Below are positions 1-25,202 of a stretch of 25,202 nt of DNA, piece after piece. Source of the DNA: Baffinella frigidus. Taxonomy: Eukaryota > Cryptophyceae > Cryptomonadales > Baffinellaceae. The translations under genes and the position numbers were made by a program. A model generated the notes under the pieces. It was not told the DNA's origin and ran no database searches. It saw only the letters and a program-made list of their open reading frames with translations. The stretch is taken from contig MU646320.1 of the NCBI GenBank assembly GCA_026770585.1, forward strand, positions 1,255,572 through 1,280,773, in the 5' to 3' direction. Every line of letters starts with the position of its first letter. Position 1 is the first letter of the stretch.

Positions 1-152
1 AGCCACCCTGTATCCCCTCCTCACGAGCCTCTGCACTGGAGAGCGAAACGCGATCCGAAAGCAAAAATGCTTTCTCTGCAGTCCTTTCTACGGAAGGGCA
101 TGTCGTTGGCATATGTTGGGAGAAATTAAAACCTAAAGGACCTAAAGGACGG
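1..152 (+). repeat. Repeat family A, 3' end (copy A1)
   Basis: The window opens inside a family A copy. It runs from the segment containing CCTGTATCCCCTCCTCACG through GATCCGAAAGCAAAAATGC and TATGTTGGGAGAAATTAAAA into the (CCTAAAGGA)n tail. The same order of motifs recurs at 1240-1392, 1880-2020 and 2515-2665, and in reverse at 8595-8760 and 11010-11170. No coding potential is evident. Confidence 0.85.
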
Positions 153-175
153 GGGGGCTAAAGGACGGGGGGGCT

Positions 176-280
176 GATGTGATCCGAAAGGAAGCACGGC
201 CTTTCTGCAGAATACGTTCCGGTGTCCGCCTATGTTGGGAGCTCGAAGAACCTAAAGGACCTAAAGGAAGGACCTAAGGG
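176..280 (+). repeat. Repeat family B (copy B1)
   Basis: A unit of about 95 bp: GATGTGATCCGAAAGGAAGC, then CCTTTCTGCAG, then GTTCCGGTGTCCGCCTATG, then TTGGGAGCTCGAAGAA, then the CCTAAAGGA tail. Family B resembles the 3' end of family A (shared GATCCGAAAG, TATGTTGGGAG and tail), so the two probably share an origin. Other copies are near 2772, 4478, 4797, 4932 and 5029, and in reverse at 10895-10990. Confidence 0.85.
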
Positions 281-8145: not shown

Positions 8146-8149
8146 TATA

Positions 8150-9920: not shown

Positions 9921-9946
9921 ACCTAACGTGTTTAAACACGTTAGGT
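9921..9946. repeat. Perfect 26-bp palindrome
   Basis: Two perfect 13-bp half-sites of ACCTAACGTGTTT with no spacer. Confidence 0.95.
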
Positions 9947-9959
9947 AAACACGGAAAAC

Positions 9960-10445: not shown

Positions 10446-10454
10446 TGCAACTTG

Positions 10455-10793: not shown

Positions 10794-10894
10794 TTCAACG
10801 TGTTGACCCCTGCAGATTAGTTCCTCGAAATCCGGAGCAGCACCGCCGTATGCGCGCGCGTGCTCCCATTCGAGCGTCATGCAAAATCTGGTTC

Positions 10895-10990
10895 TTTAGG
10901 TCCTTTAGGTTCTTTTAACTCTCAGCATAGGCGGACACCGGAACGTATCCTGCAGAAAAGCCGTGCTTCCTTTCGGATCACATCAGGCCC
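10895..10990 (-). repeat. Repeat family B, inverted (copy B8)
   Basis: Reverse B unit: TTTAGGTCCTTTAGG tail, CATAGGCGGACACCGGAACG, CTGCAGAAA and CCTTTCGGATCACATCA. It lies between the two copies of the TRAF flank. Confidence 0.8.
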
Positions 10991-11004
10991 CCCGTTGCAG
11001 AAGG

Positions 11005-11410
11005 ACTTTAGGTCCTTTAGGTCCTTTAGGTTTTAATTTCTCCCAACATATGCCAACGACACGCCCTTCCGTAGAAAGGACTGCAGAGAAAGCATGTTTG
11101 CTTTCGGATCGCGTTTCGCTCTCCAGTGCAGAGGCTCGTGAAGAGGGGATACAGGGTGGCTCTCTTGGGGTGTTTGAGGAGTCCCAAGTGGGAGCACGCT
11201 CGCGCACACACCGAACCCAAGTCAGCCATTATGAGGCTCATGGTATCCCATGGTTGGAGTATAAAAGCTCCAGCCACGGATACCCCACCAGGTGAGATGA
11301 ATCATGGGGGGGGGTGAGGTGAGATCAGTTAGACACCAAAGATGAAAGGAGATAAATGTGGTCAGGTTGAAAATTTGGGATTTCTCCCAATGTACAATGA
11401 TTGATCGTTA
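11005..11410 (-). repeat. Repeat family A, inverted (copy A10), hairpin 11242-11284
   Basis: The best-preserved inverted A copy, extending to TTCTCCCAATGTACAATG (reverse of the TACATTGGG segment). The CACCAGGTGAGATG after the hairpin resembles a splice donor, but no exon is evident. Confidence 0.85.
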
Positions 11411-11411
11411 C

Positions 11412-11475
11412 GAGCCCTTTAGGTCCTGGATCCTTTAGGTCCTTTAGGGTTTAATTTCTCCCAACATAGCCCAAC
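11412..11475 (-). repeat. Family A 3' end scrap, inverted
   Basis: A TCCTTTAGG tail followed by TTTAATTTCTCCCAACATAG, ending where the TRAF flank copy begins. Confidence 0.7.
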
Positions 11476-11803
11476 GAATAGTTGGTCGACCCGAGTGAGG
11501 CAGAGCTGGAAAAATGCGTCAGAGCCAATCCAGATGCGTCAGAATCAGAGCCAATCCACACTCGTCAAAGCTGACCCCAACGCGTCAGAGCCCGCCACAC
11601 GCGTCAGAACCCGCCACACACTGCAGAGCCTTCTAAGAGTGGAGCCGCGTCCTCCCACCTGCCCGAAATTATTCAGCCTCAGATCACAAGGGCCGTTCGC
11701 ACCGCGCGCGTGCGCTCCTCGTCCAGTTTGCCATTCCGCCGCGCCTTCCACCTGATAAGCCGTTCAGCATCACGTTCGGCCCCTCCCCGGGCGCGCTGCT
11801 CAG
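11476..11803 (+). repeat. 3' end of the intron before the TRAF exon; downstream copy of a direct duplication
   Basis: Matches 10455-10793 with small indels. It ends at CTGCTCAG, the inferred splice acceptor of the exon that starts at 11804. The pair brackets inserted A and B repeats (10880-11475). Confidence 0.8.
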
Positions 11804-12808
11804 AGCAAGCCAGAGCTGGTGGCGCGCCTGGAGGAGGACCGCGCGGGTTGCGGGTGGAAGGGCAGGGTGGGGGACCTGGCCACGCACCTGCTGGAGGAGT
11901 GCGAGTGGGCGCCGGTGAAGTGCCCCAACAAGGGCTGCGCGGAGTCGCCGTTTCGCAAGGATCTGCCCACCCACACTGCGACCTGCGGCGAGCTCCTATC
12001 GTCATGCAGCCACTGCACGATGACGTTTCAGCGCCGGTCGCTCGCGGAGCACGAGGGCCTCTGCCCTCTTGCCATCATCAAGTGCCCTAACGAGGGCTGC
12101 AGCGTCAAGCACATCAGGGGTTCCATGAACCGGCACCGCGCGAAGTGCGAGCACGAGGAGGTCACGTGCCTGTGCCCGGGGTGCGACGCGCGCCTCCTCC
12201 GGAAGGACACGCGTCAGCACGTGAGGGATCGGCACCTGCAGTCGGCAGTTGGGCTGCTGGAGAGCGCGTGGAGCCAGAACGCTGTGCTGGAGGGCCGGGT
12301 CGCGGCGTCAAACGCTGCGCGCAAGGGGTTGGAGCAGAGGTCGTCGGACGAGAATGCAGGGCTCCGGGCCACGGCAGAGAGCGAGCAGCGTTACGCGGCA
12401 GCGTCGCCGACGTCGTGGGCGTTCAACTGGCGCGCTGACGACGGCTGGGGGCCCGGCGCATTCGACTCCGAATTCCACGAGTTCGGGCAGGTGGTTCCCG
12501 GGTTTTGCGTCTTTCATCTCAGCGACAAACCCGAACACTCGCACTTCATCGGGTTCGGGATTACGGGGATCGACGTCAAATGCAGGGTGCATGCGACGTT
12601 CTCCATTCTCGATAATCGCGACGCCACCCTCCGTGAAGTCCAGGGTCTTGGGACTGCCGCAGCGCCCGTCGAAATCGAATCGTACGATCCTGAGTTTAGT
12701 GGCACGTACTTCACGCCGACGGCGGAGGAGAAGGCGCAGTCGGTGCGCGCGGACGGGAGCATCAGGCTGCGCGCGGTCGTGCGCCTCTTCTTCGACGACA
12801 CGGCGTAG
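11804..12808 (+). CDS. TRAF-like zinc-finger protein, 3' terminal exon
   Basis: A 334-codon open exon ending in TAG. Start: an in-frame TAA lies at 11756-11758 and no ATG follows before the conserved region, so the protein must be entered by splicing; CTGCTCAG|AGC at 11804 is the best acceptor. Numbered from that first codon, five TRAF-type Cys/His fingers are visible: C16-H28-C33; C40-C45-H57-C61; C68-C71-H83-C87; C94-C99-H111-C115; C122-C127-H139-H144. A helical Ala/Glu/Arg-rich linker (about 147-200) precedes a TRAF/MATH-like beta domain (about 203-334; WAFNWRADDGW, HFIGFGITGIDVKC, RLRAVVRLFFDD). TRAF proteins are usually cytosolic adaptors or, with an N-terminal RING, ubiquitin ligases. 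The RING or leader would be on upstream exons; 4697-4750 is a weak candidate. GC is much higher than in the flanks, as expected for coding sequence. Family assignment is firm; its pathway is unknown. Confidence 0.85.
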   Translation, partial: SKPELVARLEEDRAGCGWKGRVGDLATHLLEECEWAPVKCPNKGCAESPFRKDLPTHTATCGELLSSCSHCTMTFQRRSLAEHEGLCPLAIIKCPNEGCSVKHIRGSMNRHRAKCEHEEVTCLCPGCDARLLRKDTRQHVRDRHLQSAVGLLESAWSQNAVLEGRVAASNAARKGLEQRSSDENAGLRATAESEQRYAAASPTSWAFNWRADDGWGPGAFDSEFHEFGQVVPGFCVFHLSDKPEHSHFIGFGITGIDVKCRVHATFSILDNRDATLREVQGLGTAAAPVEIESYDPEFSGTYFTPTAEEKAQSVRADGSIRLRAVVRLFFDDTA

Positions 12809-13224
12809 GCGTGGAGGAGGAAATGGGGCGGCGGGAGGGAGGGGCGGGACTGAGCAGAGGATTGGAAGGCGAGAGCGCGTGGACGGTGCGGGGTTGGGGG
12901 TCGGGGGGGGGCAGCGGGGCAGCGCCGAAAGCGGGACGGGAGTTGGTGGGGTAGAGGAGTTGATTGACAGGGGCATGCAGGAGAGTAGATCTACGACAGG
13001 CAAAAAATCGTTCTCATCTCCCGCTAAAACCGACCCCCCCCTCCTCCCCCTCCCCCTTATGCCAGCCCCCGTGCCAGCCCTGGCGATGGTTGCAAATGGG
13101 CTGCCTTTGCAACCAAGCGTCGTCCCACCTATCCTCCTGGCTCGGCGCGGTTGTGTTTAACAATTTATTAAAACCCTCTTTCCCTCAGGGCGTCCTGTGT
13201 TCATCCCGTCAAGCATCAGAGCTA
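12809..13224 (+). other. 3' flank / probable 3' UTR of the TRAF-like gene
   Basis: G-rich just after the stop, then a C-rich segment. A small hairpin lies at about 13087-13113 (GGTTGCAAA with TTTGCAACC). I see no AATAAA signal. A long plus-strand frame (12249-13160) and a minus-strand frame (12308-13003) here are shadows of the GC-rich exon. Confidence 0.55.
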
Positions 13225-13340
13225 CAGAGGTACCTCGCTCATAAGACCCCCCCCCCCCCCAGGACCACCATAGGGCCCTAGACATAGTCATACGGTAGGG
13301 TCCTAGGAGGGGGCAGTTTCTTATGAGCGAGGTACCCCTG
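13225..13340. mobile_element. TA-flanked MITE, CAGGGGTACCTCGCTC family (copy 2)
   Basis: CAGAGGTACCTCGCTCATAA on the left and TTATGAGCGAGGTACCCCTG on the right, with TA on both sides. The centre (TAGGGCCCTAGACATAGTC) differs from the other copies while the ends are conserved. Confidence 0.9.
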
Positions 13341-14949: not shown

Positions 14950-15104
14950 CCACACACCGGGCTACGAAGGGATTTCGTCAATAACCCATGCGTGAATAGT
15001 CACCATACGGTAGGCAATCGGTAGGGACACAGGGTTATTCCTAGGGCTGTCCCAACGGAAAGTCGCTCGATTTTGGCCATATTTCCCCTTCGTAGGTTGT
15101 GTGG
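14950..15104. mobile_element. Inverted-repeat element, CCACAC ends (copy 1)
   Basis: The left end CCACACACCGGGCTACGAAG pairs with the right end CTTCGTAGGTTGTGTGG. It shares internal order with 15258-15414: ACGGTAGGCAA, GGGACA, then AACGGAAAGT. Confidence 0.65.
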
Positions 15105-15114
15105 AGAGATGCAG

Positions 15115-15250
15115 CTGCGCGCAGGTTCCCGCGGCAACCGTGCTTCTGAGTGTCCCTTGAGGACGCGCCCGTTCTATCCCCCAGGACGCGCCCGTACTAA
15201 CCCAGGACACGGTTGCCGCGAGAACCTGCGCGCAGGTTCCCACGGCAACC
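15115..15250. repeat. GCGCGCAGGTTCC inverted and direct repeat cluster
   Basis: GCGCGCAGGTTCCCGCGGCA and ACCGTG (left) pair with CACGGTTGCCGCGAGAACCT (right). A third, direct copy follows. GGACGCGCCCGT is duplicated in the loop. The cluster sits between the two CCACAC elements. Confidence 0.75.
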
Positions 15251-15257
15251 GTGCTGC

Positions 15258-15414
15258 CCACACAGCGGGCGTCGAAGGGATTCGTGAACAACCCAGAAGC
15301 GATACGACCCTACGGTAGGCAAAACCCGCAGGGACATAGTTGGGTTCCTACGGGTAAGGTAACGGAAAGTGGGCCCGAAATGGGCCGAACACCCCTTACT
15401 AGCCCGCTGTGTGG
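15258..15414. mobile_element. Inverted-repeat element, CCACAC ends (copy 2)
   Basis: Perfect 13-bp ends CCACACAGCGGGC and GCCCGCTGTGTGG; 157 bp, against 155 bp in copy 1. No gene inside. Confidence 0.8.
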
Positions 15415-15439
15415 GGTGGGCACTCTGGCTTCTGCCTTC

Positions 15440-16317
15440 TGGTCTTCACGCCCAGGGGGTACGAGTCATGCAACAGGTCACGCGCCAGATCACGTCCATA
15501 GTTTGTACCGGTCACGTCCCACATCACGACCATAGTCTGTACGGGCCACGCTCCACAACACGTCCATGGTGAAGACGGGATGGGGAGCGCACGTCCAAGG
15601 TGTAGGGGTGGTGGAGGTCGTGCAACAGGTCACGTCCAATATTTGTACTGGTCGCGTCCCACACCACGACCATACTCAGTACGGGTCACGACTAGTGTTT
15701 GTACGGGCCACATCCCTCATCACAACCATAGCCAGTACGGGTCACGACCAGTGTTTGTACGGGTCACGCCCCACAACACGTCTAGAGTGAGTACGGGATG
15801 GGGAGCGCACGTCCAAGGTGCAGGGGTGGTGGAGGTCGTGCAACAGATCACGTCCAGAGTTTTTACGGGTCAAGCCCCACAGCACGTCCAAGAGTGAGTA
15901 GTCACATCTGGTGTTTGTACGGGTCACGCCCGACATCACGTCCAGAGTGAGTACGGGATCAGGAGCGCACGTCCAAGGTGTAGGGATGGTGAAGGTCGTG
16001 CACCAGGCCACGTCCAATATTTGTACGGGACGCATCCCACAACACGTCCAATAGTGAGTAGGGGATGGGGAGCTCACGTCCAAGGTGTAGGGGAGGTCAC
16101 GTCCAACATCACGTCGAAAGTCTGTACGGGATCCGGGATCGGGATGGGGTGCGCACGTCCAAGGTGTAGGGGTGGTGGAGGTCGTGCAACAGGTCACATC
16201 CAGTGTTTGTACGAGTCGCGTCCCACATCGTGTCCAAAGTCAGTACGGGTCGCGTCCGGTTTTGTACGGGTCACGCCCGATATCGCTTCCAAAGTCAGTA
16301 GGGGATGGGGTGCGCAC
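15440..16317 (-). repeat. Array of exon E9 3'-half ghosts and intron start
   Basis: On the minus strand, at least five copies of the last part of E9 with its donor (CACGACCTCCACCACCCC, TACACCTTGGAC, then |GTGCGC). They lie at about 15588, 15807, 15966, 16072 (donor GTGAGC) and 16151, with a decayed copy near 15455. Between them are degenerate GACGTGATGTGGG / GTACAAAC units derived from the intron start. None contains the 5' part of E9. Confidence 0.8.
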
Positions 16318-16392
16318 GTCCAAGGTGTAGGGGTGGTGGAGGTCGTGCTCCAGCTCTTCTGCCGAAGACGTCATGTCTGCGATCCACTCCGC
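16318..16392 (-). CDS. RhoGEF-like gene, exon E9 (PH C-terminal helix)
   Basis: 75 nt, phase 0 at both ends. Acceptor GGTCAG|GCG, donor GGAC|GTGCGC. It encodes AEWIADMTSSAEELEHDL and seven more residues. The Trp of AEW is the near-invariant PH Trp, placed directly after E8's SSPADK as in classical PH domains (A-S-S-x-x-x-K-x-x-W). Confidence 0.78.
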
Positions 16393-19300
16393 CTGACCAC
16401 ACATCTGAATTTCAGATCGAGGCCAAAGTAGCTCCTGTTGAGGTCGACATCGCTCGCATGGCCATACTCTGTAAGACCCTTACACAGTTAGATGCAAGAG
16501 GTGGTGCTCGAGCTCTTCTGCCGAAGACGTCACGTCTGCGTAGGGTTTGGGGTTTGGGGTTTAGGGTTTGGGGTCTGGGGTTTAAGGTTTAGCTCTGTCT
16601 GGCCAGGGCACACAAAGCAATTTCAGATACGAGTCTTGTTTCAATTTTTCTACCAGAGGTTTCGGACGCAGGTAAAAGCCTGGACGTGGAAAGGACGAGG
16701 AGCTGCGTTTCACCGGGGAGCACACACTTATCTCAGAAAACGAGTTCTAAAACTCGTTTTCTTAAGTCAATTTCCCTACAAATTTGTCAACTTATGCGGA
16801 GAGTAAAGAATGAGTTGACGAATTCGCAGGGGAATTGACTTAAGAAAACGAGTTTTAGAACTCGTTTTCTGAGATAAACACGCATTTATCACCACGCAAT
16901 TATCAGTTACACGATAGGATGGCCACGCCAGAGGACTCGAGGGTAACGACTGTCTTATCTTGGCCAGATCTGGCGAAAGCGACTTTGAGAATCCTTCGGG
17001 TTTCCACTGGAAGATGTCAAAAGTGGATGTTTCGAGGCCTCTGGCGTGGGGAGGACCTTGTCGGCCGAGCCGCCGGCAAAGCTAGGTCTACACACAATTA
17101 TCAATTACCCGCGGTTTACACATAATTATCAGTTACACGATAGGATGGAGGAGGACCTTGTCCGCAGGGGAGGAGGCGCCGACGAAGAGGTGCCACCCGG
17201 CTGCCGAGCAGTCACGCAGCAAGGCTACTCTACCGGTGGACTTATTGGGACGTGACTCGGTACACAATGTACAATAGATGGCTTTAAAGCCCATTTGAAA
17301 CAATTATTGCAATGCTTAAGGGGGAGGGAGGACCTTGTCGGCAGGGGAGGATGCGCCGACGAAGAGATGCCACCCGGCCGCCGCCACGATCCGGATCACA
17401 TTATCTCCCTGTGGGATTCAAGGGTTGGAATTTAGGTTGAGGGGGTAGGTTTGTGGTTTAGATTCGCAGGGTTGTGGTTTAGATTTGTGGATAAGATTTA
17501 TGTTCTCCTCCTGCTTAGGGTTTAGGGTTTGCGGTTTGAGGTTGGGGTTGGTTAAGGGTGTGGGGTTCGGAGAGATGCCACCCGGCCGCCGCCACGATCC
17601 GGATCACATTATCCCCCTGCTCTAGGGGTTTCGGTTTAGGGTGTAGGTGTAGGGGTTAGGTTTGTGGTTGAGATCCTGATCTCGTTTCCCCCCCGCCGAG
17701 GAGTTGGAGTTGAGGGTTGGTTGAGGTTTCGGGTTTAGATCCTGATCACGTGCTCCCCCGGCTTAGGGTTTTGAGGTTTGGGGTTTCGGGGTTGGGGTTG
17801 GTTAAGGTTTAGGGTCTGACGAAGAGGTGCCACCCGGCTGCCGCTACGATCCGGATCACGTTGCCCCCCTGTGGGATTTCAAGGGTTTGGGTTCAGGTTG
17901 GGGGGTTTGATCCTGACCACGTTCTCTTCCTGCTTAGGGTTTAGGTTTTATGGGTTAGGTTTGTGGTTTAGATCCTGATCACGTTCTCCTCCTGTGCAGG
18001 GTTTCGGGGTTTGGGGTTTCGGGGTTGGGGTTGGTTGAGGTTTAGGGTCTGGCGAAGAGATGCCACCCGGCCGCCGCCACGATCCGGATCACATTATCTC
18101 CCTGCTTTAGGGTTCAGGGTTTAGGGTTTAGGTTGATGGGGTAGGTTTGTGGTTAATACTCGCAGGGTTGTGGTTTAGATTTGTGGTTAAGATTCATGTT
18201 CTCCTCCTGCTTAGGGTTTAGGGTTTAGGGTTTAGGGTTGAGGGTTTGGAGTTGCTTTAGGTTTGGGGTCTGGCCAAAGGTGCCGCCCGGCTGCCGCCAG
18301 GATCCGGATCACGTTGCCCCCCTGCTTCGGGTTAAGGGTTTAGAGTTTAGGGTTTAGGGTTTAGGGTTTAGGGTTTAGGGTTCAGGGTTTAGGGTTTAGG
18401 GTTCAGGGTTTAGGGTTGATGGTTGATGGTTGATGGTTGATGGTTGATGGTGGATGGTTGATGGTTGATGGTTGATGGTTGATGGTTGATGGTTGATGGT
18501 TTCGGGTTTCGGGTTTCGGGAATCGACCAGTCTGTCAGGGTCATTAGGCTCGTCGATCGCCTCGGCGCCTTTAGGGTTTGGTGTTTAGGGTTTAGGGTGC
18601 AGGGCTTAGGTTTGATCGTTTCGGGTTTCGGGTTTCGGGTTTCGGGTTCAGGGTTTCGGGTTTCGGGTTTCGGGATTCGACCAGTCTGTCAGGGTCGTCA
18701 GGCTCGTCGATCGCCTCCGCGCCGAGCAGCGGGATCACCACTTGCGCCTCGTACACCAGCTCGCCGCCCTCGTGGTCGTGTCCGGAGAGGAGGCTCTTCC
18801 GCTTGTCACGTTTGTCGAACATCCCTGCTCGATCGCAGCTCCTGTCAGCATCTGGGACACGACCATGGACACGACCACGCCTCCCACGACTGTTGACTAA
18901 TTCGAGGAGGAGGAAAGCAGTGAAGGGGCTCGCCTGGTGCACCAGGGGAGCCAAATTACGGCATTCCGTACAACCCTACGGTATTGCCTACGGTAGCACC
19001 CTACCGAATGTTGGAAAGAGGTTGACGCCGGACATAGGTCGTCCACGCCCTTGAGGGAGTACAGGGGCTTACAGCGACGCCGACGATGGAGCGCCACCTC
19101 CTAACAACACCACCACCACCACCACCACCACCACCACCTAACAACACCAACAACACACAACCTGAGGCGGCGACGCCGACGCTGCCGTGGCGGGAGCGCT
19201 TGAGCGGCGTCACCGTCCCACCACCCTACGGTATTGCATACCACCCAGCGGTATTGCATACGGTAGCACGCTACGGAATGCTGGAATTAGGCCGTCCACC

Positions 19301-22300
19301 CTGAAAGGAGTAGAGGGGCTTGCCTGGCGTTGACGCTGGAGTTGCAGGGATCGCTTGGGTTTGACTCTTCAGTGAATAGTCTGTGCTGGTAGGAAACACC
19401 ACACACCACCACCACCACCACCACCACCACCACCTCCTCCTCCTAACACCACCAACAACACACAACCTGGGGTGGCGACGCCGACGCTGCAGTGGCGGGA
19501 CCGCTTGAGCGGCGTCACCGTCCCACCACCCTACGGTATTGCATACCACCCTGCGGTATTGCATACGGTAGCACCCTACACAATGCCGTTTCAGGCCGTT
19601 TCAGGCCCAATTCCGGCATTCTGTAGGGTGCTTGGTCCCGCCGCCAGGGTGGCCACCCTGAAAGGAGTAGAGGGGCTTGCCTGGGGCGGCGACGCCGACG
19701 CCTGAGTGGCGGGACCGCTTCAGCGGGGTGACCGTCCCGTCATCCTTCGTCCGCGTGAACACCTTCCGTCAAAAGGGTTCACGGGTTAGGGTCTCGGTTT
19801 CGAGTTTCGTGTTTCGTGTTTCTGGTTTCGGGTTCGGGTTTCGTGTTTCTCATCCTTGGACCGCGTGAACACCTGCAGACACCAAACGGGTTCACGGTTA
19901 TGAATAAACCCTGGTCATAACCACTTACCCTAGACGAACCCTAGGGCGCCGCCGCCTGAGTGTCGGGGATGCTTGAGCGGGGTTACAGTCCCATCGTCCT
20001 TTGTCCAAAGGAGCTCCACCCTAATAGGGTAACTGACCAAAAATGGGGTAGTTAGGCCTACGGGATTGCCTAGGACCTCCTACCGTAGGCCGAGACTTTT
20101 TGGTCCTGGGATCCCTCGGCCTACGGTAGGAGGTCCTAGACAATGCCGTTCGCGTGCACACCTTCCATCCAAAGGGGTCACGGGTTAGGGTCTCGGTTTC
20201 GAGTTTCGGGTTTCGTGTTTCTGGTTTCGGGTTCGGTTTTCGTGTTTCGTGTTCCGGATGTCGGGGTCCGGGGGGGAGGGGTTTCAAGCACCATGGCGCC
20301 AAAGAGAGTGTCGATGAATGCGTATTTCGTGTTGCGGGTCTCGGGTTTCGGGTTCAGGAGGGGACCATGGCGCCGATGAGGGTGCATGATTGGGGGTTGG
20401 GGTTCGGGTTTCGTGTTTCGGCGTTTCGTGGGTGCGGGGTGATGGTTGAGGGGTGATGGTTGAGGGGTCGTGGTTGAGGGTTGAGGGGTGAGGGGCGAGG
20501 GTTGACGGCACCATGGCGCCAATGAGGCGTGTTTGGTGTTTGGTGTTTGGTGTTTGGTGTTTGGTGTTTGTTGTTGGTTTGGGTTTCGGGTTGCCAGTAC
20601 CATGGCGCCAATGAGGGTGTCGTTGAACAGGAAGAAGAGCAGCGCGTCTGCCCCCGTCCACCGGTCCTGCAAGACCAGCCAACCGTTTGAGCACCGATTT
20701 CATACGGAAAAACTTATAATTTATAAAGTGGATCCAATGAAATTTACTACACAAAACGATCTTTGCTAGTAATATTAAAGCAAAAGTGTAGTAATTTAGG
20801 CCAGCCAACCGTGTGAGCTCTTTACTCAATGCTTTGAGCTCTTTTACTGGATCGTTTCGTCAACCGTTTGAGCACCGGTTGAGCCCTTCATAGTTTCGAG
20901 TCACCCCTGTCCACCAGCCCTCACCATTTGACCAAACCGTCGATTCGAGATTTTGGATTTACCCTTGATGTACCCCTGCAGAGACCCCGGATCTGGGGTC
21001 TCTGCAAGGGTAAATCTCAAGTCTAAAATCGATGATTTGGTCAACCCGGAATGGTTGGCGGGTTCTCATGTTCATAGTACCTGGATCTGGTTTTAGATTC
21101 GTAAAGTGGCTCGTTCTGGTACAAATAATAAAACTAACGGGGCTATAAGTGACTTGTAGCCCCGTTAGTTTTATTATTTGTACCAGCACGAGCCACTTGA
21201 CGAATCTAAAACCAGATCCAATCACTATTAATGTACGTTCCGCACAATGCTCTGTGACTCAACGGGCAGAGCCCCGGTCCACCAGTCCTGCAAGGCGATC
21301 CAGCCGCTTGAGCTCTTTGCTCAACGCTTTGAGCTCTTTTACTGAATCGTTTCGTAAAGCAACTCGTGGGTCAGGCCTGTTTGGAGAGATGTCAACTTGA
21401 GGACAGTCGGTGACTCCGAGTGAGGCAGAGCTATAACCTCGGGGCGGCGGTGGTGCTCGACGAAGGGGGTTCAGGGTTCAGGGTCCAGTCGGGTCAATGG
21501 GGTCCAAACGCAATGTGTGTGTTTTTCGTGTTTCATGTTTCGGGGTTTCGTGGGTTTCGTGGGTGAGGGGTGAGGGGTGAGGGGGGAGGGGGGAGGGTTG
21601 ATGGGTAGGTGAGAGGGAACACGCATACACACGCTAGGAGCAGGGTGGCGGCAGACCTGTTTGGAGAGGTGCGGCGGCGCCTGCATCGTCCCCAGCTTGC
21701 GGCTGTTGATCAGTTTGTGGTGTACAACTGTACAACTAACTGTACATCTGTAGACCTGTAGACCTGTAGACCTGTAGACCTGTAGACCTGTAGACCTGTA
21801 CAACTAACTGTACATCTGTGCAACTGTCTGTACAACTGTCTGTACAACTGTACAACTGTACAACTGTACAACTGTACATCTATACAACTGCACAACTGTA
21901 CACCGTAACACGCGGAGCAGGGTAGAGGCAGAGACCTGTCTGGAGAGAAGCGGTCAATTCAGTAAAAGAGCTCAAAGCGTTTCGTAAAGCAACTCGACGG
22001 GCAGAAACCTGTTTGGAGAGGTGCGGCGACCCCGGATCTGGGGTCTCTGCAAGGGTAAATCTCAAGTCTAAAATCGATGATTTGGTCCAACCGGAAGGGT
22101 TGGTGGGTTCTCATGCAGGGTGGCGGCAGAAACCTGTTTGGAGAGGTGCGGCGGCGCCTGCATCGTACACCTGTACAACTAACTGTACATATGTACACGC
22201 GTCTGTTCAACTGTACACCTATACAAGTGTACAACCAACTGTACACCTGCACAACTGCACACCTTAACACGAGGAGCAGGGTAGAGGCAGAGACCTGTTT

Positions 22301-24993
22301 GGAGACCATGTCACTATCAAGTTGCAGAGACCTGTTTGGAGAGGTCCAGTCCGGTCAATGGGGCCCAAACGCGGTGTAGCTGCATACAAATACTAGCAGC
22401 AGGATGGGGCCAGACCTGTTTGGAGAGGTGCAGCGGCTTTACTCAACGCTTTGAGCTCTTTTACTAAATCGTTTTGTAAAGCAACTCGATGGGCAGAAAC
22501 CTGTTTGGAGAGGTGCGGCGGCGCCTGCATCGTCCGCAGCTTGCGGCTCTTGACAAGCCTTCGGTGCGGCTTCAGCAGGTCCGCGGCGAGCGCCCCCGAG
22601 AACTGCGCCATTCACCCCAGTTCACACGCGGGAATTTGCTGACAAGTCTTCGGCGCGGCGTCAGCAGGTCCGCCGCTAGGGGGCCCGAGAACTGCAGAAC
22701 GCGGGGTGTGGATGACAGACGCGTAAATGCGGGGTGCAGGTTACACGTGTGATTTCCCTGACGGTTGATTCTGAGATTCTTTCTCAGAAAGCACGCCACA
22801 CGTAAGCGAGGAGCTTGCGGCTCTTGCCCAGCCTTCGGTGCGGCTTCAGCAGGTCCGCCGCGAGCCGTCCCGAGAGCTGCGCCATTCACCCCAGTTCACA
22901 CGCGGGAATTCGCCGAACACTAATTCTGGGATTCGTTCTCTGAAAGCACGCCAGTCAACGGAGCTTGCGGCTCTTGACCAGCCTTCGGTGCGGCCGGAGC
23001 AGGTCCGCCGCCAGGGGCCCCGAAAACTGCCGAACGCGAGGTGGTGCCACGCCAGACTGCTGGAGGGGGTAGATCCCTTTGGGAACTCCAGTTTTGGCGT
23101 TCGACTATGCCAAAAGTAAACAATTTCCCCTTAGTCCTCTCGGGGAATTGACTTGCGGCGACCCCTTCCATCGCTCTGGCGTGGTGGTATTAGAGCGGTG
23201 TGCAAAGAAGTTGGGCGCATAACTAATAAAAAGTTGGTCAGCGTAGACGATTCTGGTACACAAATGGGCTCTGTTGGATCTCCCGGCCTGAGAAGCGCAG
23301 GCTTTCGGCAACTTTCCGGCAGAGGTCGGCAACTTCCAGCCTGAGTCGGCCACTTTTGCACTGGGGTCGGCAACTTTCGGCGAGGGGTCGGCAACTTTCG
23401 GGGATGGGGTCGGCAACTTCCAGGCTGGGGTCGGCAACTTTCGGGGAGGGGTCCACCTGCGCGGCGAGAGTGACGAGGCGAAAGAGCGCTAGGCAGTCCC
23501 GCCTCCGGTATCTGATAGGGGTTAGGGTTTGGGGTTGAGTGTTTAGGGTTTAGAGTTTGGGGTTTAGGGGTTGGGGTTTAGGGTTTGGGGTTTAGGGTTG
23601 AGGGTTTGGGGTTTAGGGGTTTGGGGTTAGGGGTTAGGGGTTAGGGTTTAGGGTTTGGGGTTTAGGGGTTAGGGTTTAGGGTTTAGGGTTTAGGGTTTAG
23701 TGCAGTCACGCCTCCGATACCTGTTGGGGTTTCGGGTTTCGATTTTCGGTTTTCGGTTTTCGGGATTCGGGTTCCGGGTTCCGGGATTCGGGTTTCAATT
23801 TTCGGTTTTCGGTGTTCGGGATTCTGGTTCCGGTTTTCGGGTTTCGAGTTTCGGGATTAAGAACGCCCCGCATGATGTGGATGTCTACGGCCGGCACCCG
23901 ACCCGAGCCTGCACTTGAGGCAAGAGTGAGGAAGGCGTACACCCTGCACAGTGTCTAGCAACGCCCCCTATCCCTCAAGTGACCAGGCCTCCAAATTTGG
24001 GGGCCTGAGGTCCTAGGCAGGTCCTAGGGCCCTACGGTAGGGCGTATGGGCCTACTGGGCACTTACGGGATAGAGCGTTTTTGCTCAGGTTTCGAGACCC
24101 AATTCCAGCGGAGATCCACTTCGGTGGGGCGAACTTTTTGTCAAGTCGTGTGGTGTGGACCTGAGGGTGCGACCGTTGACTAACCCAGACTGATTTGTAC
24201 TGGGACGATGACTGATCCGAGCAGGGTTAGGGGTGTAGGAGACCTGAGGGTTGCTGCGGCCTTCGGTGGGCCGAACTTTTTGTCAAGTCGCTTCGGTGGG
24301 CCGAACTTTTTGTCAAGTCGTGTGGTCTAAACCCTAAACTTGAAACCCTAGACCCTAAACTCTAAACCCTAAACCCTGGACCTGAGGGTTGCTGCGGCCT
24401 CGACGGCGCTCGCGGCGCAGCGTGCGACCTGGGTTTAGTGTTTAGTGTTCAGGTTTAGTGTTTAGGTTTAGGATTTAGGGTTGAAGGTTCAGGGTTTAGG
24501 GTTTAGGGTTCAGGGTTTAGGGTTTAGGGTTCAGGGTTTAGGGTTTAGGGTTTAGGGTTTAGGATTTAGGGTTTAGGGTTCAGGGTTTGGGGGTTAGGAG
24601 GAAGACCTTGTCTCGAAGGGACCAGAGGCTGGGAGGTACTGCGTCCCGCAGTGCCGTTAGCCCTGCGGAGGGTGGATGGTTGAGGGTGTAGGGGGTGGGG
24701 TTTAGGGTGTAGGGTTGAGGGGGTGTAGGGTGTAGGGTGTAGGGTGTAGGGTGTAGGGTGTAGGGTGTAGGTTGTAGGGCGTGAGGTTTATGGTCTGGGA
24801 TTTAGAGTTTAGGGTTAGGATTTGTAGGGTGTAGGGTGTAGGGTGTAGGGTGTAGGGTGTAGGGTGTAGGGTGTAGGGTGTAGGGTGTAGAGTTCAGGGG
24901 GAGTAGGGTTTACGGTTTATGGATCAGGGTTTCGGGTTTGGGGATACGGTCGAGGACCGGGGACGGAGACTTTAATAAGGTTGAGGCAGTGCT
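16318..24993 (-). CDS. RhoGEF-like protein, 3' part of a gene (exons E0-E9; DH end plus PH domain)
   Basis: Joined minus-strand exons: 24993-24948, 24662-24607, 24428-24382, 23943-23865, 22602-22501, 20666-20601, 19762-19681, 18824-18682, 17408-17334, 16392-16318. They total 771 nt (257 codons) with no stop; all junctions are in phase, every acceptor is AG, and all donors are GT except one GC. Residues about 5-110 resemble the last DH helix and DH-PH linker (LLKSPSP, then LLKPHRRLVKSRKL); about 90-250 form a PH domain, with LLFFLFNDTLIGAM, VYEAQVVIPLLG, WHLFVGASSPADK and the C-terminal helix Trp in AEWIADM. Such proteins activate Rho-type GTPases at membranes. The DH assignment is weaker than the PH assignment. 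The 5' exons are beyond 25202; the end may be at 13996-14064. Introns are 178 bp to about 1.8 kb, filled with exon ghosts, heptamer arrays and fold-back elements. A pseudogene is possible but the intact frame argues against it. Confidence 0.68.
16499..16540 (-). pseudogene. Ghost of exon E9, 5' half
   Basis: Reads GCAG then ACGTGACGTCTTCGGCAGAA and GAGCTCGAGCACCACC on minus. It matches E9 from its sixth codon and lies in the intron upstream of E9, next to a TTTGGGG/TTTAGGG block. Confidence 0.7.
16728..16877. mobile_element. Fold-back element, 150 bp, in intron E8-E9
   Basis: Arms of about 51 bp starting TTATCTCAGAAAACGAGTTC and ending GAACTCGTTTTCTGAGATAA. Each arm also contains its own small palindrome (AAAACGAGTTCTAAAACTCG). 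The centre has GTCAACT/AGTTGAC. Confidence 0.9.
16922..17048. repeat. Short inverted repeat around intron sequence
   Basis: CCACGCCAGAGG and CCTCTGGCGTGG bracket about 100 bp of non-repeat sequence. A direct repeat CAATTATCAGTTACACGATA plus GGATGG occurs at about 16896 and, slightly altered, at 17121. Confidence 0.6.
17057..17210 (-). pseudogene. Two ghosts of exon E8, 3' half
   Basis: 17157-17210 gives CAGCCGGGTGGCACC...GCGGACAAG|GTCCTCC on minus. 17057-17076 gives GGCTCGGCCGACAAG|GTCC. Both keep the donor and lack the exon's 5' half; both lie downstream of E8. Confidence 0.75.
17211..17333. other. Short intron segment
   Basis: Contains the perfect palindrome GGCTTTAAAGCC (about 17280-17291). 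Otherwise unremarkable. Confidence 0.4.
17334..17408 (-). CDS. RhoGEF-like gene, exon E8 (PH strands 6-7)
   Basis: 75 nt, 25 codons, phase 0 at both ends. Acceptor CCACAG|GGA, donor CAAG|GTCCTC. It encodes GDNVIRIVAAAGWHLFVG then ASSPADK, the usual beta6-beta7 strands leading into the C-terminal helix. It is the only complete copy among about seven versions of this exon in the window. Confidence 0.78.
17410..18500 (+). repeat. Heptamer-like intron sequence, ending in pure TTTAGGG then TTGATGG
   Basis: TTTAGGG-related units between the E8 ghosts become pure TTTAGGG at about 18330-18410 and switch to pure TTGATGG at about 18416-18500. The G-rich strand is on plus, so the pre-mRNA would carry the C-rich strand. 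Confidence 0.85.
17569..18320 (-). pseudogene. Four ghosts of exon E8, 5' half
   Basis: Partial copies end (minus-strand 5') at about 17616, 17868, 18099 and 18320. Each starts with a CAG acceptor followed by GGNNGATAATGTGATCC or GGGGGCAACGTGATCC and GGATC...GGGTGGCA, and breaks off before or just after the LFV codons. All lie upstream of E8, separated by heptamer-like repeats. Confidence 0.78.
18528..18569 (-). pseudogene. Ghost of exon E7, 3' end
   Basis: Minus-strand GCGATCGACGAGCCTAATGA then CCCTGACAGACTG|GTCGATTCCC copies the last 14 codons of E7 and its donor. It is downstream of E7, flanked by TTTCGGG and TTTAGGG units. Confidence 0.8.
18570..18681 (+). repeat. TTTAGGG and TTTCGGG heptamers
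   Basis: Intron sequence between E7 and its ghost, mostly TTTCGGG units. Confidence 0.85.
18682..18824 (-). CDS. RhoGEF-like gene, exon E7 (PH strands 4-5)
   Basis: 143 nt: two bases completing a Gly codon, then 47 codons. Acceptor GAGCAG|GG, donor ACTG|GTCGAA. It encodes MFDKRDKRKS, then a basic/acidic loop, VYEAQVVIPLLG and DEPDDPD, typical of the PH strand that ends IPL. The acceptor has a poor pyrimidine tract, but its phase matches E6 exactly. Confidence 0.72.
18825..19056. other. Intron E6-E7, proximal part
   Basis: Contains GACACGACCATG repeats and, at about 18958-19020, a CCTACGGTATTGCCTACGGT segment of the TACCGTAGGC type that recurs at 19220-19285 and 19528-19600. Confidence 0.5.
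19057..19600 (-). pseudogene. Three ghosts of exon E6, 3' half, in tandem units of about 300 bp
   Basis: Minus-strand copies with left edges at about 19057, 19162 and 19467 carry ACGCCGCTCAAGCG...GTCGGCGTCGCC and (in the last two) an AG|GTTGTGTG donor. They lack the first nine codons of E6. Each unit also contains a (CCA)n run (19110-19137; 19404-19436) and a CTACGGTATTGCATACC segment. Confidence 0.75.
19110..19436 (+). repeat. (CCA)n microsatellites, two blocks
   Basis: Pure CCA runs at about 19110-19137 and 19404-19436, at equivalent places in two tandem intron units. Confidence 0.9.
19681..19762 (-). CDS. RhoGEF-like gene, exon E6 (PH loop)
   Basis: 82 nt, 27 codons plus one base. Acceptor ACGGAAG|GTG, donor CCAG|GCAAGC, a GC-type donor. 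It encodes VFTRTKDDGTVTPLKRSRHS and a short Gly/Val/Ala tail, fitting the variable loop after the FLFND strand. It ends with one base, and E7 supplies the missing two. The downstream ghosts carry GT at the same donor position. Confidence 0.65.
19780..20063 (-). pseudogene. Ghosts of exon E6, 5' and middle parts, with TTTCGGG/TTTCGTG units
   Basis: 19850-19872 gives CTGCAG|GTGTTCACGCGGTCCAAGG on minus. 19945-20013 gives an ACAAAGGACGATGGGACTGT copy followed by CCGCTCAAGC. A third 5' stub ends at 20161. All lie upstream of E6. Confidence 0.7.
20064..20144. mobile_element. TACCGTAGGC-family palindrome, truncated element
   Basis: Two arms of about 30 bp, ATTGCCTAGGACCTCCTACC... and ...GGTAGGAGGTCCTAGACAAT, flank a 21-nt loop. 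To the left (20024-20060) is GGGTAACTGACCAAAAATGG then GTAGTTAGGCCTACGGG, as in 3511-3664. Confidence 0.75.
20185..20600 (-). pseudogene. Three ghosts of exon E5, 3' end, in TTTCGGG/TGTTTGG arrays
   Basis: Copies with donor-side edges at 20292, 20366 and 20512. On minus: ATCGACACTCTCTTTGGCGC then CATG|GTGCTT, CACCCTCATCGGCGCCATG|GTCC and CTCATTGGCGCCATG|GTGC. Only the last 5-9 codons are kept. A homogeneous TGTTTGG heptamer block lies at 20531-20570. Confidence 0.8.
20601..20666 (-). CDS. RhoGEF-like gene, exon E5 (PH FLFND strand)
   Basis: 66 nt, 22 codons, phase 0 at both ends. Acceptor TCTTGCAG|GAC, donor CATG|GTACTG. It encodes DRWTGADALLFFLFNDTL and four more residues. The L-F-L-F-N-D-x-L pattern is the hallmark PH beta3 strand of Dbl-family exchange factors. 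Confidence 0.8.
20667..20927. other. Intron E4-E5, proximal part
   Basis: Holds partial copies of the compact E4-E5 intron (GAGCTCTTTACTCAATGCTTT and relatives at about 20815-20860) and an E5 5' relic near 20905-20920. Confidence 0.6.
20928..21044. mobile_element. Fold-back element, 117 bp, in intron E4-E5
   Basis: TTGACCAAACCGTCGATTCG pairs with a right arm ending ATCGATGATTTGGTCAA. The centre has a perfect GCAGAGACCCC/GGGGTCTCTGC stem. A right half only is repeated at about 22022-22085. Confidence 0.85.
21082..21220. mobile_element. Fold-back element, 139 bp, in intron E4-E5
   Basis: Nearly perfect arms of about 64 bp, from TGGATCTGGTTTTAGATTCG to CGAATCTAAAACCAGATCCA, with a very short loop near TATAAGTGACTTGTAG. 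Confidence 0.9.
21271..21400 (-). pseudogene. Ghost unit carrying a whole compact intron between E4 and E5 edges
   Basis: On minus: the E4 3' edge (TCTCCAAACAG) at 21377, an 89-nt intron-like stretch 21376-21288 beginning GC and ending TTGCAG, and the E5 5' edge GACTGGTGGACCGGGGC at 21287-21271. It looks like a relic of the gene before this intron expanded. Confidence 0.7.
21401..21656. other. Intron sequence with TTTCGTGGG and GGGGTGA repeats
   Basis: Starts with AGTCGGTGACTCCGAGTGAG, a relative of the TRAF flank repeat (10460, 11481), then a GAGGGGTGAGGGGTGAGGGG block near 21564-21590. No gene recognised. Confidence 0.5.
21657..22460 (-). pseudogene. Seven ghosts of exon E4, 3' end
   Basis: Copies of CACCTCTCCAAACAG with the following donor GT(T/C)T(C/G) have their edge at 21657, 21936, 22009, 22134, 22295, 22332 and 22416 (21936 slightly diverged). 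The longest (21657-21720) keeps about 20 codons. All are downstream of E4 and lack its 5' half. Confidence 0.8.
21720..21905 (+). repeat. Octamer arrays (TGTAGACC)n and (TGTACAAC)n
   Basis: About seven TGTAGACC units are followed by TGTACAAC units with variants. A second degenerate block is at about 22165-22265. TGTACA makes each unit locally self-complementary. Confidence 0.9.
22501..22602 (-). CDS. RhoGEF-like gene, exon E4 (DH-PH linker and PH strand 1)
   Basis: 102 nt, 34 codons, phase 0 at both ends. Acceptor TGGCGCAG|TTC, donor ACAG|GTTTCT. It encodes FSGALAADLLKPHRRLVK and SRKLRTMQAPPHLSKQ. The LL-x-P-x-R-x-LV-x-x-x-x-L pattern is the usual DH-PH linker and first PH strand. It is the only full-length copy; three 5' and eight 3' partial copies lie on the expected sides. 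Confidence 0.75.
22638..23026 (-). pseudogene. Three ghosts of exon E4, 5' half
   Basis: 22691-22638, 22876-22812 and 23026-22961 each begin with a CAG acceptor and read TTCTCGGG/CTCTCGGG/TTTTCGGG, then GCGGACCTGCT and CCGAAG, stopping around the SRKLR codons. They alternate with GATTCTGAGATTCTTTCTCA-type units. All lie upstream of E4. Confidence 0.8.
23040..23300. other. Intron segment without recognised exon
   Basis: Low-copy sequence. A short inverted repeat CAATTTCCCC/GGGGAATTG lies at about 23121-23149, and GGGGAATTGACTT is shared with the fold-back at 16728-16877. No exon supported. Confidence 0.4.
23301..23448 (-). repeat. 21-bp minisatellite
   Basis: About seven units of GGGGTCGGCAACTTTCGG plus 2-3 variable bases. 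The frame stays open on minus (KVADPSP-like heptads), but this is explained by the 21-bp period. Confidence 0.85.
23459..23513 (-). CDS. Possible alternative exon (E3b) between E3 and E4
   Basis: Minus-strand 55 nt between CTATCAG| and GCGCAG|GTGGAC. A partial 5' copy (ACAG|GTATCGGAGGCG) lies upstream at 23701-23722, as seen for true exons. In one frame it reads YRRRDCLALFRLVTLAAQ and would enter E4 in phase, but E3 then has no matching donor. It could be an alternative or dead exon. Confidence 0.28.
23514..23864 (+). repeat. TTTAGGG/TTTGGGG then TTTCGGG heptamer arrays
   Basis: 23520-23700 is TTTAGGG with TTTGGGG variants. 23725-23855 is a TTTCGGG array with TTTTCGG variants, ending at the E3 donor. 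Confidence 0.9.
23865..23943 (-). CDS. RhoGEF-like gene, exon E3
   Basis: 79 nt: one base completing Arg, then 26 codons (VYAFLTLASSAGSGR, then VPAVDIHIMRG). Acceptor TGTGCAG|G, donor GGGC|GTTCTT. Phases match E2 and E4. It falls where the DH-to-PH linker is expected, but no hallmark motif is present. Confidence 0.5.
23969..24072. mobile_element. 104-bp MITE, TATCCCTTAAGTG ends (copy 2), in intron E2-E3
   Basis: Ends TATCCCTCAAGTG and CACTTACGGGATA. The body is the reverse complement of 5191-5294 with scattered changes. Confidence 0.85.
24100..24381 (-). pseudogene. Ghosts of exon E2 3' end and repeated intron start
   Basis: Edges at 24161 and 24244 keep CCTCAG|GTC (the second also GCCGCAGCAACCCTCAG). 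The unit CGACTTGACAAAAAGTTCG then GCCCACCGAAG occurs three times. A short C-rich-strand heptamer block (CCCTAAA) at 24327-24376 is in opposite orientation to the other arrays. Confidence 0.65.
24382..24428 (-). CDS. RhoGEF-like gene, exon E2
   Basis: 47 nt: 15 codons (VARCAASAVEAAATL) plus two bases of an Arg codon. Acceptor AACCCAG|GTC, donor TCAG|GTCCAG. An Ala-rich helical sequence consistent with the end of a DH domain. Confidence 0.5.
24436..24600 (+). repeat. TTTAGTG then TTTAGGG heptamer array
   Basis: Intron between E1 and E2: a few TTTAGTG units, then TTTAGGG with TTCAGGG variants. Confidence 0.9.
24607..24662 (-). CDS. RhoGEF-like gene, exon E1
   Basis: 56 nt: two bases completing Arg, then 18 codons LTALRDAVPPSLWSLRDK. 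Acceptor CTCCGCAG|GG, donor CAAG|GTCTTC. Other frames would meet a TAA at the start or break E2. With E0 it gives LLKSPSPVLDR followed by LTALRDAV, similar in layout to the LLK-x-TP...L-x-x-A stretch late in DH domains. Confidence 0.55.
24663..24947 (+). repeat. TGTAGGG heptamer arrays
   Basis: Intron E0-E1: two pure TGTAGGG blocks (about 24725-24780 and 24825-24890) with degenerate units around them. Confidence 0.9.
24948..24993 (-). CDS. RhoGEF-like gene, exon E0 (first exon visible)
   Basis: 46 nt, 15 codons plus one base, phase 0 at entry. Acceptor TTCTGCAG|AGC, donor GACC|GTATCC. It encodes STASTLLKSPSPVLD. Just upstream (about 25053-25085) the acceptor region is repeated as GCAGAGCTCTGCAGAGCTC. 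Earlier exons must lie beyond the window. Confidence 0.45.
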
Positions 24994-25002
24994 CTGCAGA
25001 AC

Positions 25003-25049
25003 CATAAACTATAAACCATAAACCGTTAACCATAAACCATAAACCATGA
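25003..25049 (+). repeat. (CCATAAA)n heptamer block
   Basis: AACCATAAACTATAAACCAT and further units: a heptamer in C-rich-strand orientation, upstream of E0. Confidence 0.85.
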
Positions 25050-25085
25050 ATCAGCACTGCAGAGCTCTGCAGAGCTCTCTGCAAA

Positions 25086-25109
25086 GCCCCCCCCCCCCCA
25101 CCCCCCGGC

Positions 25110-25151
<42 letters not shown>

Positions 25152-25162
25152 CCACGTGGCAC

Positions 25163-25202
<40 letters not shown>
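25086..25202. other. Poly-C run, probable sequence or assembly edge artefact
   Basis: Over 100 nearly pure C with a few interruptions (GGCGG, GCCACGTGGCACT). Likely low-quality sequence at a contig end or next gap. Open frames here are meaningless. Confidence 0.7.

Follow-up and report, generated by a model that had tools for sequence, protein, structure and literature searches.

How does an intron come to hold only that half of an exon which faces it? The question is raised by a minus-strand gene in the window, a stretch of 25,202 nucleotides of Baffinella frigidus DNA (contig MU646320.1), whose introns carry partial copies of the neighbouring exons, hereafter called ghosts. Exon limits were taken from the homologous proteins P0001 and P0002. 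In the protein comparison all nine exons E1-E9 match these homologs, E3-E9 form a consecutive stretch in P0001, and homolog support is absent only for E9's final 21 nt and its donor. A tenth segment is tentative; it has no homolog support, and an AG acceptor directly before it was not found.

24607..24663 (-): E1 (GLTALRDAVPPSLWSLRDK), P0002 match, acceptor side uncertain
24382..24428 (-): E2 (VARCAASAVEAAATL), homolog match and DNA search
23457..23511 (-): E3 (YRRRDCLALFRLVTLAAQ), homolog match and DNA search
22501..22602 (-): E4, full exon, homolog match and DNA search
20601..20666 (-): E5, full exon (DRWTGADALLFFLFNDTLIGAM), homolog match and DNA search
19681..19762 (-): E6, full exon, homolog match, followed by a GC-type donor (CCAG/GCAAGC)
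18682..18824 (-): E7, full exon, homolog match and DNA search
17334..17408 (-): E8, full exon, homolog match and DNA search
16318..16392 (-): E9, homolog covers positions 4-54 of 75, donor side inferred
15399..15475 (-): E10, tentative last coding segment with TAG end

The gene had been read as RhoGEF-like, which is not proven. Its own protein has zero matches in Pfam, so no RhoGEF or PH domain lies above the cut-off, and P0001 has only a sub-threshold PH-domain match (E 8.6e-4, 19.6 bits, cut-off 27); neither therefore carries the Pfam RhoGEF or PH match above cut-off by which a RhoGEF (DH-PH) protein would be recognized. The structure predicted for P0001 has a mean pLDDT of 41, and PDB sequence searches returned 0 matches for P0001 and 4 weak matches for P0002. 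In the genome, the spliced protein matches its own locus and its ghosts only.

Each exon with 60-nt flanks was used as a DNA query against positions 14950-25202, and the ghosts were mapped a second time after repeat masking. With the exon limits given by the homologs, 30 boundary-type half-exon copies were mapped in the window gene. Same-strand upstream copies with an acceptor were found for E3 (one, seen in the first DNA search only and gone after repeat masking), E4 (three), E5 (one), E6 (two) and E8 (four), and same-strand downstream copies with a donor for E2 (one), E4 (seven), E5 (three), E6 (two), E7 (one), E8 (one) and E9 (five). They are listed below with exon positions in brackets; the evidence is DNA search, unmasked and masked, except where a line names the unmasked search only or an extent that was shorter on remapping.

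24241..24262 (-): E2 3' half with donor (29-50/47)
23702..23773 (-): E3 5' half with acceptor (-52..19), unmasked search only
22959..23030 (-): E4 5' half (-3..68)
22812..22916 (-): E4 5' half (-39..65)
22640..22695 (-): E4 5' half (-3..52)
22395..22437 (-): E4 3' half (81..123)
22324..22345 (-): E4 3' half (89..110)
22125..22166 (-): E4 3' half (70..111)
21974..22028 (-): E4 3' half (83..137)
21927..21953 (-): E4 3' half (85..111)
21650..21709 (-): E4 3' half (50..111)
21320..21391 (-): E4 3' half (88..161), donor GT changed to GC
21271..21313 (-): E5 5' half (-25..17)
20499..20532 (-): E5 3' half (47..79), DNA search, shorter on remapping
20330..20384 (-): E5 3' half (48..98), DNA search, shorter on remapping
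20279..20318 (-): E5 3' half (40..79)
20147..20221 (-): E6 5' half (-59..15), DNA search, shorter on remapping
19947..20006 (-): E6 internal fragment in upstream intron (11..70 of 82), an exception, DNA search
19850..19897 (-): E6 5' half (-21..23)
19466..19535 (-): E6 3' ghost (14..83)
19161..19230 (-): E6 3' ghost (14..83)
18491..18569 (-): E7 3' half (102..180; 102..145 after masking), DNA search
18278..18378 (-): E8 5' half (-52..44), DNA search, shorter on remapping
18053..18164 (-): E8 5' half (-59..49; longer on remapping), DNA search
17818..17905 (-): E8 5' half (-35..51)
17568..17674 (-): E8 5' half (-54..49)
17150..17206 (-): E8 3' half (26..82)
16498..16540 (-): E9 internal fragment in upstream intron (12..54 of 75), DNA search
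16141..16195 (-): E9 3' half (37..91; longer on remapping), DNA search
16020..16097 (-): E9 3' half (56..132)
15914..16006 (-): E9 3' half (40..132; longer on remapping), DNA search
15754..15849 (-): E9 3' half (37..132; longer on remapping), DNA search
15538..15631 (-): E9 3' half (37..130; longer on remapping), DNA search

Two copies are partial misfits, being internal and without an acceptor (19947-20006, upstream of E6, and 16498-16540, upstream of E9). Neither a wrong-side half nor a full exon copy was found in 14950-25202; four matches were set aside, one to E1 that is weak and distant (17147-17169, E 0.017) and three on the minus strand, of which two are to E10 and one, in telomere-like repeats, to E2. 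The copy numbers given by the sequence-only reading are one higher for downstream E4, E8, E2 and E6, where weaker candidates are visible by eye but below the search threshold.

The half-exon ghosts are real and are confirmed not to be confined to the window gene. A scan of other genes for ghosts on the matching side, suggested from the sequence alone, shows that the pattern recurs in kinesin/TCP1 genes of the same genome. Before selection, same-strand copies were present at 21 of 46 kinesin/TCP1 exons and absent at 25. With looser edges, all 46 exons gave 32 upstream 5' copies, 19 downstream 3' copies and 0 on the wrong side, together with 1 near-full, 11 internal and 6 inverted copies; two kinesin matches that are ghosts themselves (L036 6275-6388 and L037 3753-3875) were excluded from the 46-exon count. 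The stricter mapping covered 19 exons, that is, the 21 copy-bearing exons minus L056:799 (its HMM match extends across an intron) and L049:5780 (internal copy only); the 25 exons without copies were left out, and L049:804, queried again, gave none. Beside these 19 pre-selected exons lie 46 boundary-type ghosts. The window gene and the 19 exons together have 87 copies, comprising 76 boundary-type copies, 11 internal fragments and 0 full copies, and the pattern is present on 14 contigs, the window contig included. All 76 boundary-type copies are on the facing side and 0 on the wrong side, which bears out the strict geometry first described; either half occurring equally on both sides, the outcome that was to refute it, is not observed. 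At their own loci 25 exons have 79 same-strand copies versus 1 inverted copy, and in the control, other loci gave 75 matches in 325 exon-by-locus pairs, many of them probably kinesin homology. It is unlikely that the ghosts arose by chance.

The assembly is rich in N, and 8 of 11 arbitrary stretches were N or masked throughout, although part of that may reflect withheld sequence; this speaks for ghosts created by false tandem joins or collapsed haplotypes. Nevertheless, a single half-exon can have as many as seven diverged copies in the window gene, the same pattern spans the contigs counted above, and inverted matches are few (the 6 and the 1 just given). Identity between the copies and the exon region is 70-100% (median 86%), and 14950-25202 contains no N, which rules out a join of identical reads. 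An assembly artefact is thus extremely improbable.

The copies are in direct orientation, as the same-strand counts show, and the offsets between them are 61-306 bp, with one of 621. In 38 of 82 comparisons between neighbours, the copies occupy 80% or more of the offset, so about half of the pairs lie head-to-tail; the other 44 fill less than 80%, a shortfall that we read as erosion or later changes. The filled fraction is 0.92-1.00 in the E8 upstream array, 1.00 for E7 and 0.98 for L037. Telomere-like repeats contribute to offset filling in some pairs. The unit holds a junction and its intron flank: 76 of the 87 extend to the exon edge on the facing side, and 42 run at least about 10 nt past it. 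These results agree with the earlier proposal of repeated duplication of segments across exon-intron junctions. They do not agree with copies "pushed into" the intron, since the 38 pairs are still head-to-tail tandem units.

The best explanation, with a probability of about 0.8, is recurrent head-to-tail tandem duplication of segments spanning one splice junction. Short direct tandem duplications would arise often in the genome. When the segment runs from an exon into the next intron, the first copy would stay joined to the exon and work, and the second (3' half-exon, donor and intron piece) would land in the downstream intron. When it runs from an intron into an exon, the last copy would work, leaving the preceding copy (intron piece, acceptor and 5' half-exon) upstream. 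The facing-side geometry would require no special element, because junction-spanning tandem units force it topologically. Selection is the most likely reason why duplications within an exon or of an entire exon are absent: being translated or spliced in, they would be purged. Ghost units would be duplicated again to form arrays, and the ghosts would afterwards decay almost neutrally. We infer both selection as the filter and a cause at the DNA level, be it slippage, template switching or unequal exchange.

Four introns contain both ghost types, namely E2-E3 (resting on the E3 ghost of the unmasked search), E4-E5, E5-E6 and E7-E8. In all four, the upstream exon's 3' ghosts precede the downstream exon's 5' ghosts, which is the order predicted by junction duplication. 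The Rogers tandem-duplication model, in which introns are born by duplication of an exonic AGGT segment and ghosts would be relics of that birth, also predicts facing halves, and the relative P0002 carries E1-E5 as a single open frame, so some introns of the window gene may be young. However, the observed order is the reverse of its prediction in 4 of 4 introns; the downstream exon's 5' half was not found by the donor, nor the upstream exon's 3' half by the acceptor; and the 42 ghosts above bring their own junction with intron flank. The model is very unlikely to apply here.

The total lack of full-exon copies could result from purifying selection or from an anchoring of breakpoints in exons. 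Uniform duplication, with unit lengths from the window gene's 31 offsets except that of 621, expects 0.64 full-exon copies per one-junction event, and 0 were observed on 37 exon-sides (P ~1e-8, applying the window gene's ratio to all loci and taking exon-sides as independent, which ghosts within one array are not). If duplications preferentially had one breakpoint inside an exon and their second in the neighbouring intron, introns would grow outward from exon edges and full-exon copies would be lacking without invoking selection. Consistent with such anchoring, the window gene has 12 one-junction exon-sides versus 7 intron-only clusters (expected share 0.17, P 1e-5 under the same independence), an excess not predicted by plain uniform duplication, though exon-sides and clusters are counted differently and 2 of the 7 clusters lie past the gene's 3' end. 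Clusters with exon or ghost sequence also span about 6.2 kb, intervening sequence included, of the gene's about 9.3 kb. On the other hand, at the other gene loci, clusters free of annotated exon sequence are at least as numerous, a count blurred by unannotated exons, and the non-selected stretches L043, L063 and L068 also carry local tandem clusters (6, 4 and 1). Exon anchoring is therefore possible but doubtful.

That ghosts are decayed full copies is rejected, as the missing half is absent in 76 tests (3 have z>3.5, all inside neighbouring ghosts). Insertion of a whole exon copy mid-exon at a single split point is unsupported, and joining of ghost halves by splicing is rejected: a permutation test is consistent with independence between the ends of 5' ghosts and the starts of 3' ghosts (P 0.55 for mean distance and 0.15 for the number of near-coincidences), and GT is not enriched where 5' ghosts end (1 of 46 at offset 0). 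Where 3' ghosts start, AG shows a mild enrichment (9 of 41 at one offset).

Changes private to ghosts number 71 of 1993 at codon positions 1+2 and 62 of 975 at position 3 (ratio 0.56, 0.39-0.76); those private to exons number 3 of 640 and 18 of 313 (ratio 0.08, 0-0.33). Judged from this substitution pattern, private ghost decay appears almost neutral. All ghost-exon differences taken together amount to 4.9%, 6.1% and 21.4% at positions 1, 2 and 3, and the affected codons include 237 synonymous, 124 nonsynonymous and 2 stop changes versus 82, 263 and 11 if all changes were random. The resulting ratio of positions 1+2 to position 3 (0.26, 95% 0.19-0.36) is too synonymous to fit simple dead copies, since at least about 0.5 is expected for one dead and one live copy. 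This result counts against the best explanation, as do the unchanged GC3 given below, the 44 less filled pairs and the 11 internal fragments. CpG mutation as the cause of the third-position excess is rejected, because the excess persists in each parent-base class.

These differences would mostly predate duplication if ghosts and exon were long-separated functional alleles joined by unequal exchange between homologous chromosomes. The ratio is indeed low in every intron-divergence class (0.29, 0.25 and 0.31), GC3 is unchanged (exon 0.838, ghost 0.839), and there are 11 indels in 3803 nt of the exonic part of the copies versus 54 in 2835 nt of the intronic part. Such exchange, however, would demand a very high allelic divergence, estimated at ~0.12-0.15 at synonymous sites; a protein search found no second allele of the gene in the gap-rich assembly, and the private ghost changes appear near neutral. 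We regard it as a rather unlikely alternative.

The coding-like pattern overall could also mean that ghosts are in use, as splice decoys, in alternative transcripts or by recycling into the exon through array contraction, and hence under selection. Splice dinucleotides survive in 38 of 42 ghosts, in line with the first description of largely kept splice sites, and of the four that lack them, L059 probably reflects a mis-set junction. At 91% exonic identity, however, this survival is judged close to neutral decay from a fixed parent site. The near-neutral private changes, the lack of GT enrichment, a frame-breaking gap in 6 of 87 ghosts and the absence of a clear constraint gradient from junction to breakpoint also argue against use, which seems improbable. 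Selection through recycling was judged too weak on paper, as it must beat drift at near-mutation rates, and again no gradient is clear.

Tandem duplication of junction-spanning segments can be compared with known systems. Potato supplies one case, a single junction-crossing tandem duplication in an RdRp gene that gave rise to both a new intron and extra exon sequence (Ma, Lan and Niu 2016, PMC4974935); here there are many events, on both exon sides and in several genes, and the exon is apparently unchanged while the introns only lengthen. Intron gain by duplication of an exonic AGGT segment, with cases in Drosophila (PMC2891723), likewise involves a short exon-derived tandem duplication tolerated as splicing removes one copy, but the present unit includes an existing junction and the ghosts stand in the reverse order. 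Internal tandem repeats (minisatellites) with ~30 bp units alter human paralogs by changing exons or making introns (PMC2812944); these are also variable tandem repeats, some at exon-intron boundaries, whereas the offsets here are 61-306 bp, with the one of 621, and the exon is intact. Introner elements are mobile families common to different genes (PMC9860276, PMC7789003), and like them this process acts on introns genome-wide, but the copies come from the adjacent exon. Searches of the genome with the spliced protein and E7 DNA found no common element in unrelated genes; the E7 query matched only E7 itself, with a sensitivity so low that the local E7 ghost was also missed. Junction-spanning duplication is thus already known as a single case, and in the open-access PMC literature we did not find a genome-wide description of the half-exon ghost pattern or one on this scale.

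Little is documented about where introns get their sequence and how they lengthen, since the source has usually disappeared; here the source of the added sequence can still be read. The ghosts allow one to ask, as in a natural experiment, which junction duplications are tolerated by selection, how splicing picks the real site among near-identical decoys and whether short tandem duplication favours exon edges. They also serve as a warning to gene finders, as intronic exon copies are likely to be annotated as exons. A more speculative proposal still is that recurrent tandem duplication with an anchor at exon edges accounts for most intron growth in this organism, as a distinct mode of growth, and that the arrays swap units with functional exon alleles. 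If this were true, each intron would be a fossil series of the past coding states of its neighbouring exon.

The window (G000:C18:1255572-1280773, G000:C18 being our handle for contig MU646320.1) lies in an assembly of 382 Mb in 1364 contigs, marked as eukaryotic by its spliced genes and a 5.8S rRNA gene. The gene under study runs on the minus strand from ~24663 to 15399. When its spliced protein is searched against the genome, only the gene's own locus and local fragments of the gene are returned. A continuous protein reading is given by P0001 through E3-E9 (54% identity over 82% of query) and by P0002 through E1-E5 (55% identity over 41% of query), with nine exons matched in order. The last 21 nt of E9 lie outside homolog coverage, and the donor side of E6 carries GC instead of GT. 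The RhoGEF label of this gene is plausible but unproven. P0002, a 220-aa frame on a 21.5-kb contig of a relative, spans E1-E5 without introns, which suggests intron gain in the window gene or loss in the relative. In P0003, another protein record, the 3' half of E7 stands behind the repeat-like peptide SLIRNSDPLGPYSRTMPRAL and is possibly an independent half-exon copy; window positions 13184-13264 encode YRGTSLIR-like letters. Other features of the window are:

21071-21231: long and almost perfect inverted repeat inside an intron, MITE-like in shape (80-nt arms, 91% complementary, 1 nt apart)
16728-16877: long and almost perfect inverted repeat inside an intron, MITE-like in shape (68-nt arms, 93% complementary, 14 nt apart)
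22022-22115 and 20977-21070: 94-bp segment found twice in the E4-E5 intron (94% identity); part of it also lies inverted at 20911-20967
11759-12808, plus strand: neighbouring gene, whose open frame encodes a TRAF-type zinc finger (E 4e-12)
1-11500: family of dispersed repeats, occurring in either orientation, around GATCCGAAAGGAAGCATGGCC and CTAAAGGACCTAAAGGA

Arrays of telomere-like TTTAGGG and related heptamers (TTTCGGG, GGGTGTA) fill introns throughout the window, and such arrays also stand upstream of a 5.8S rRNA gene at another locus (L042, 1-1340).

Each exon was aligned with 60 nt or 150 nt of flank to the gene region. The sequence-only reading had claimed that partial exon copies (ghosts) occur only on the side facing the parent exon, and this holds: with 150-nt flanks, all boundary-type copies, 10 upstream and 20 downstream, are on the facing side and none is on the wrong side. 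An additional upstream copy of E3 appears only with 60-nt flanks, and two copies are internal. No full exon copy was found in the gene region by these alignments. Nor is the missing half hidden beyond the ghosts, as the remaining exon scores like shuffled sequence against the next 150 nt (mean z 0.28 in 76 tests spanning all loci); three tests exceed z 3.5, each with its match in a neighbouring ghost. Of the junction-spanning alignments, 19 of 20 retain AG and 19 of 22 retain GT; one miss (at sampled locus L059) probably reflects a mis-set junction. Ghosts share 91% identity with their parents in exonic parts and 80% in intronic parts, and in our judgement the dinucleotides do not clearly survive more often than neutral decay would allow.

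The scan of other genes proposed by the same reading was run, and the half-exon pattern recurs. The scan covered 22 loci with 46 exon matches to kinesin or TCP1, of which 21 have same-strand copies and the other 25 have none. These copies comprise 32 upstream-5', 19 downstream-3', no wrong-side, one near-full and 11 internal or inside, with six further matches inverted; the near-full copy becomes 3' type once the exon limits are corrected. Splice limits were assigned by eye for 19 of the 21 copy-bearing exons. When the nine exons of the window gene are added, 76 copies are facing, 0 wrong and 0 full, with 11 internal, on 14 contigs, and the halves are not equally frequent on both sides; these counts overstate independence, since ghosts within one array are related. 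Protein-kinase loci, mostly with long exons and searched within 1.5 kb, carry same-strand copies in 2 of 30 cases. In the kinesin and TCP1 set, exon matches above ~250 nt (L040, L041, L046, L047, L048) have no same-strand ghosts, the exception being L056:799, a match that crosses an intron. One kinase match (L016, C546:254053-254850) sits in what looks like a 13283-aa open frame, most probably an N run read through (compare the long frames in L043). "Genome-wide" here denotes extrapolation from the kinesin, TCP1 and kinase samples. We found no genome-wide description of half-exon ghosts in searches of the open-access literature. The nearest single example found there is a duplication in a potato RdRp gene that crosses an intron-exon boundary (PMC4974935); two further papers describe related tandem events in Drosophila (PMC2891723) and human (PMC2812944).

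Neighbouring copies are often contiguous head to tail, the alignment filling at least 80% of the offset between them in 38 of 82 comparisons (0.92-1.00 for four E8 upstream units, 1.00 for the E7 unit, 0.83-0.99 for four of five E9 units and 0.98 for sampled locus L037). Duplication of a junction-containing segment would place 3' ghosts of the upstream exon before 5' ghosts of the downstream exon, and this order is seen in all four introns with both kinds. Intron birth by AGGT-segment duplication predicts the opposite order and is contradicted by the one seen. Within an exon, the points where 5' ghosts end and 3' ghosts start fit independent placement (P = 0.55) and thus give no sign of one shared insertion point. 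At 3' ghost starts, taken over all loci, an AG dinucleotide finishes one base into the ghost in 9 of 41 cases, a mild enrichment over the roughly two cases that another offset typically gives.

Under a model of uniform placement (30 of 31 window-gene offsets, median 160, range 73-305), 15% of events are expected to span one junction, 10% a full exon, 0.2% to fall inside an exon and 74% to be intron-only. Full copies number 0 on 37 exon-sides (P ~1e-8 under the window-gene ratio; P = 0.003 for the 12 sides of the window gene alone), and their absence is most simply put down to selective removal of translated or spliced-in duplicates. Intron-only clusters are also scarcer in the window gene than expected: 7 of them stand beside 12 exon-sides with one-junction copies (P = 1e-5 for an expected share of 0.17). 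Duplication breakpoints may therefore favour exons, but this comes from one gene and unlike counting, and is not clear at other loci.

Changes private to single ghosts are near neutral (33, 38 and 62 at 1001, 992 and 975 sites of codon positions 1, 2 and 3), which indicates that ghosts decay; at position 3, GC to AT changes outnumber AT to GC (29 vs 11). Exon-private changes number 1, 2 and 18. The total ghost-exon difference is strongly synonymous (4.9, 6.1 and 21.4% at positions 1, 2 and 3) in every parent-base class, GC3 is equal in ghost and exon, and indels are few in exonic parts (11 in 3803 nt vs 54 in 2835 intronic nt). The private decay suggests that ghosts are dead now, and the total differences suggest that much of the ghost-exon separation arose when ghost and exon were both still coding. 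Such a history might result from unequal exchange between diverged alleles.
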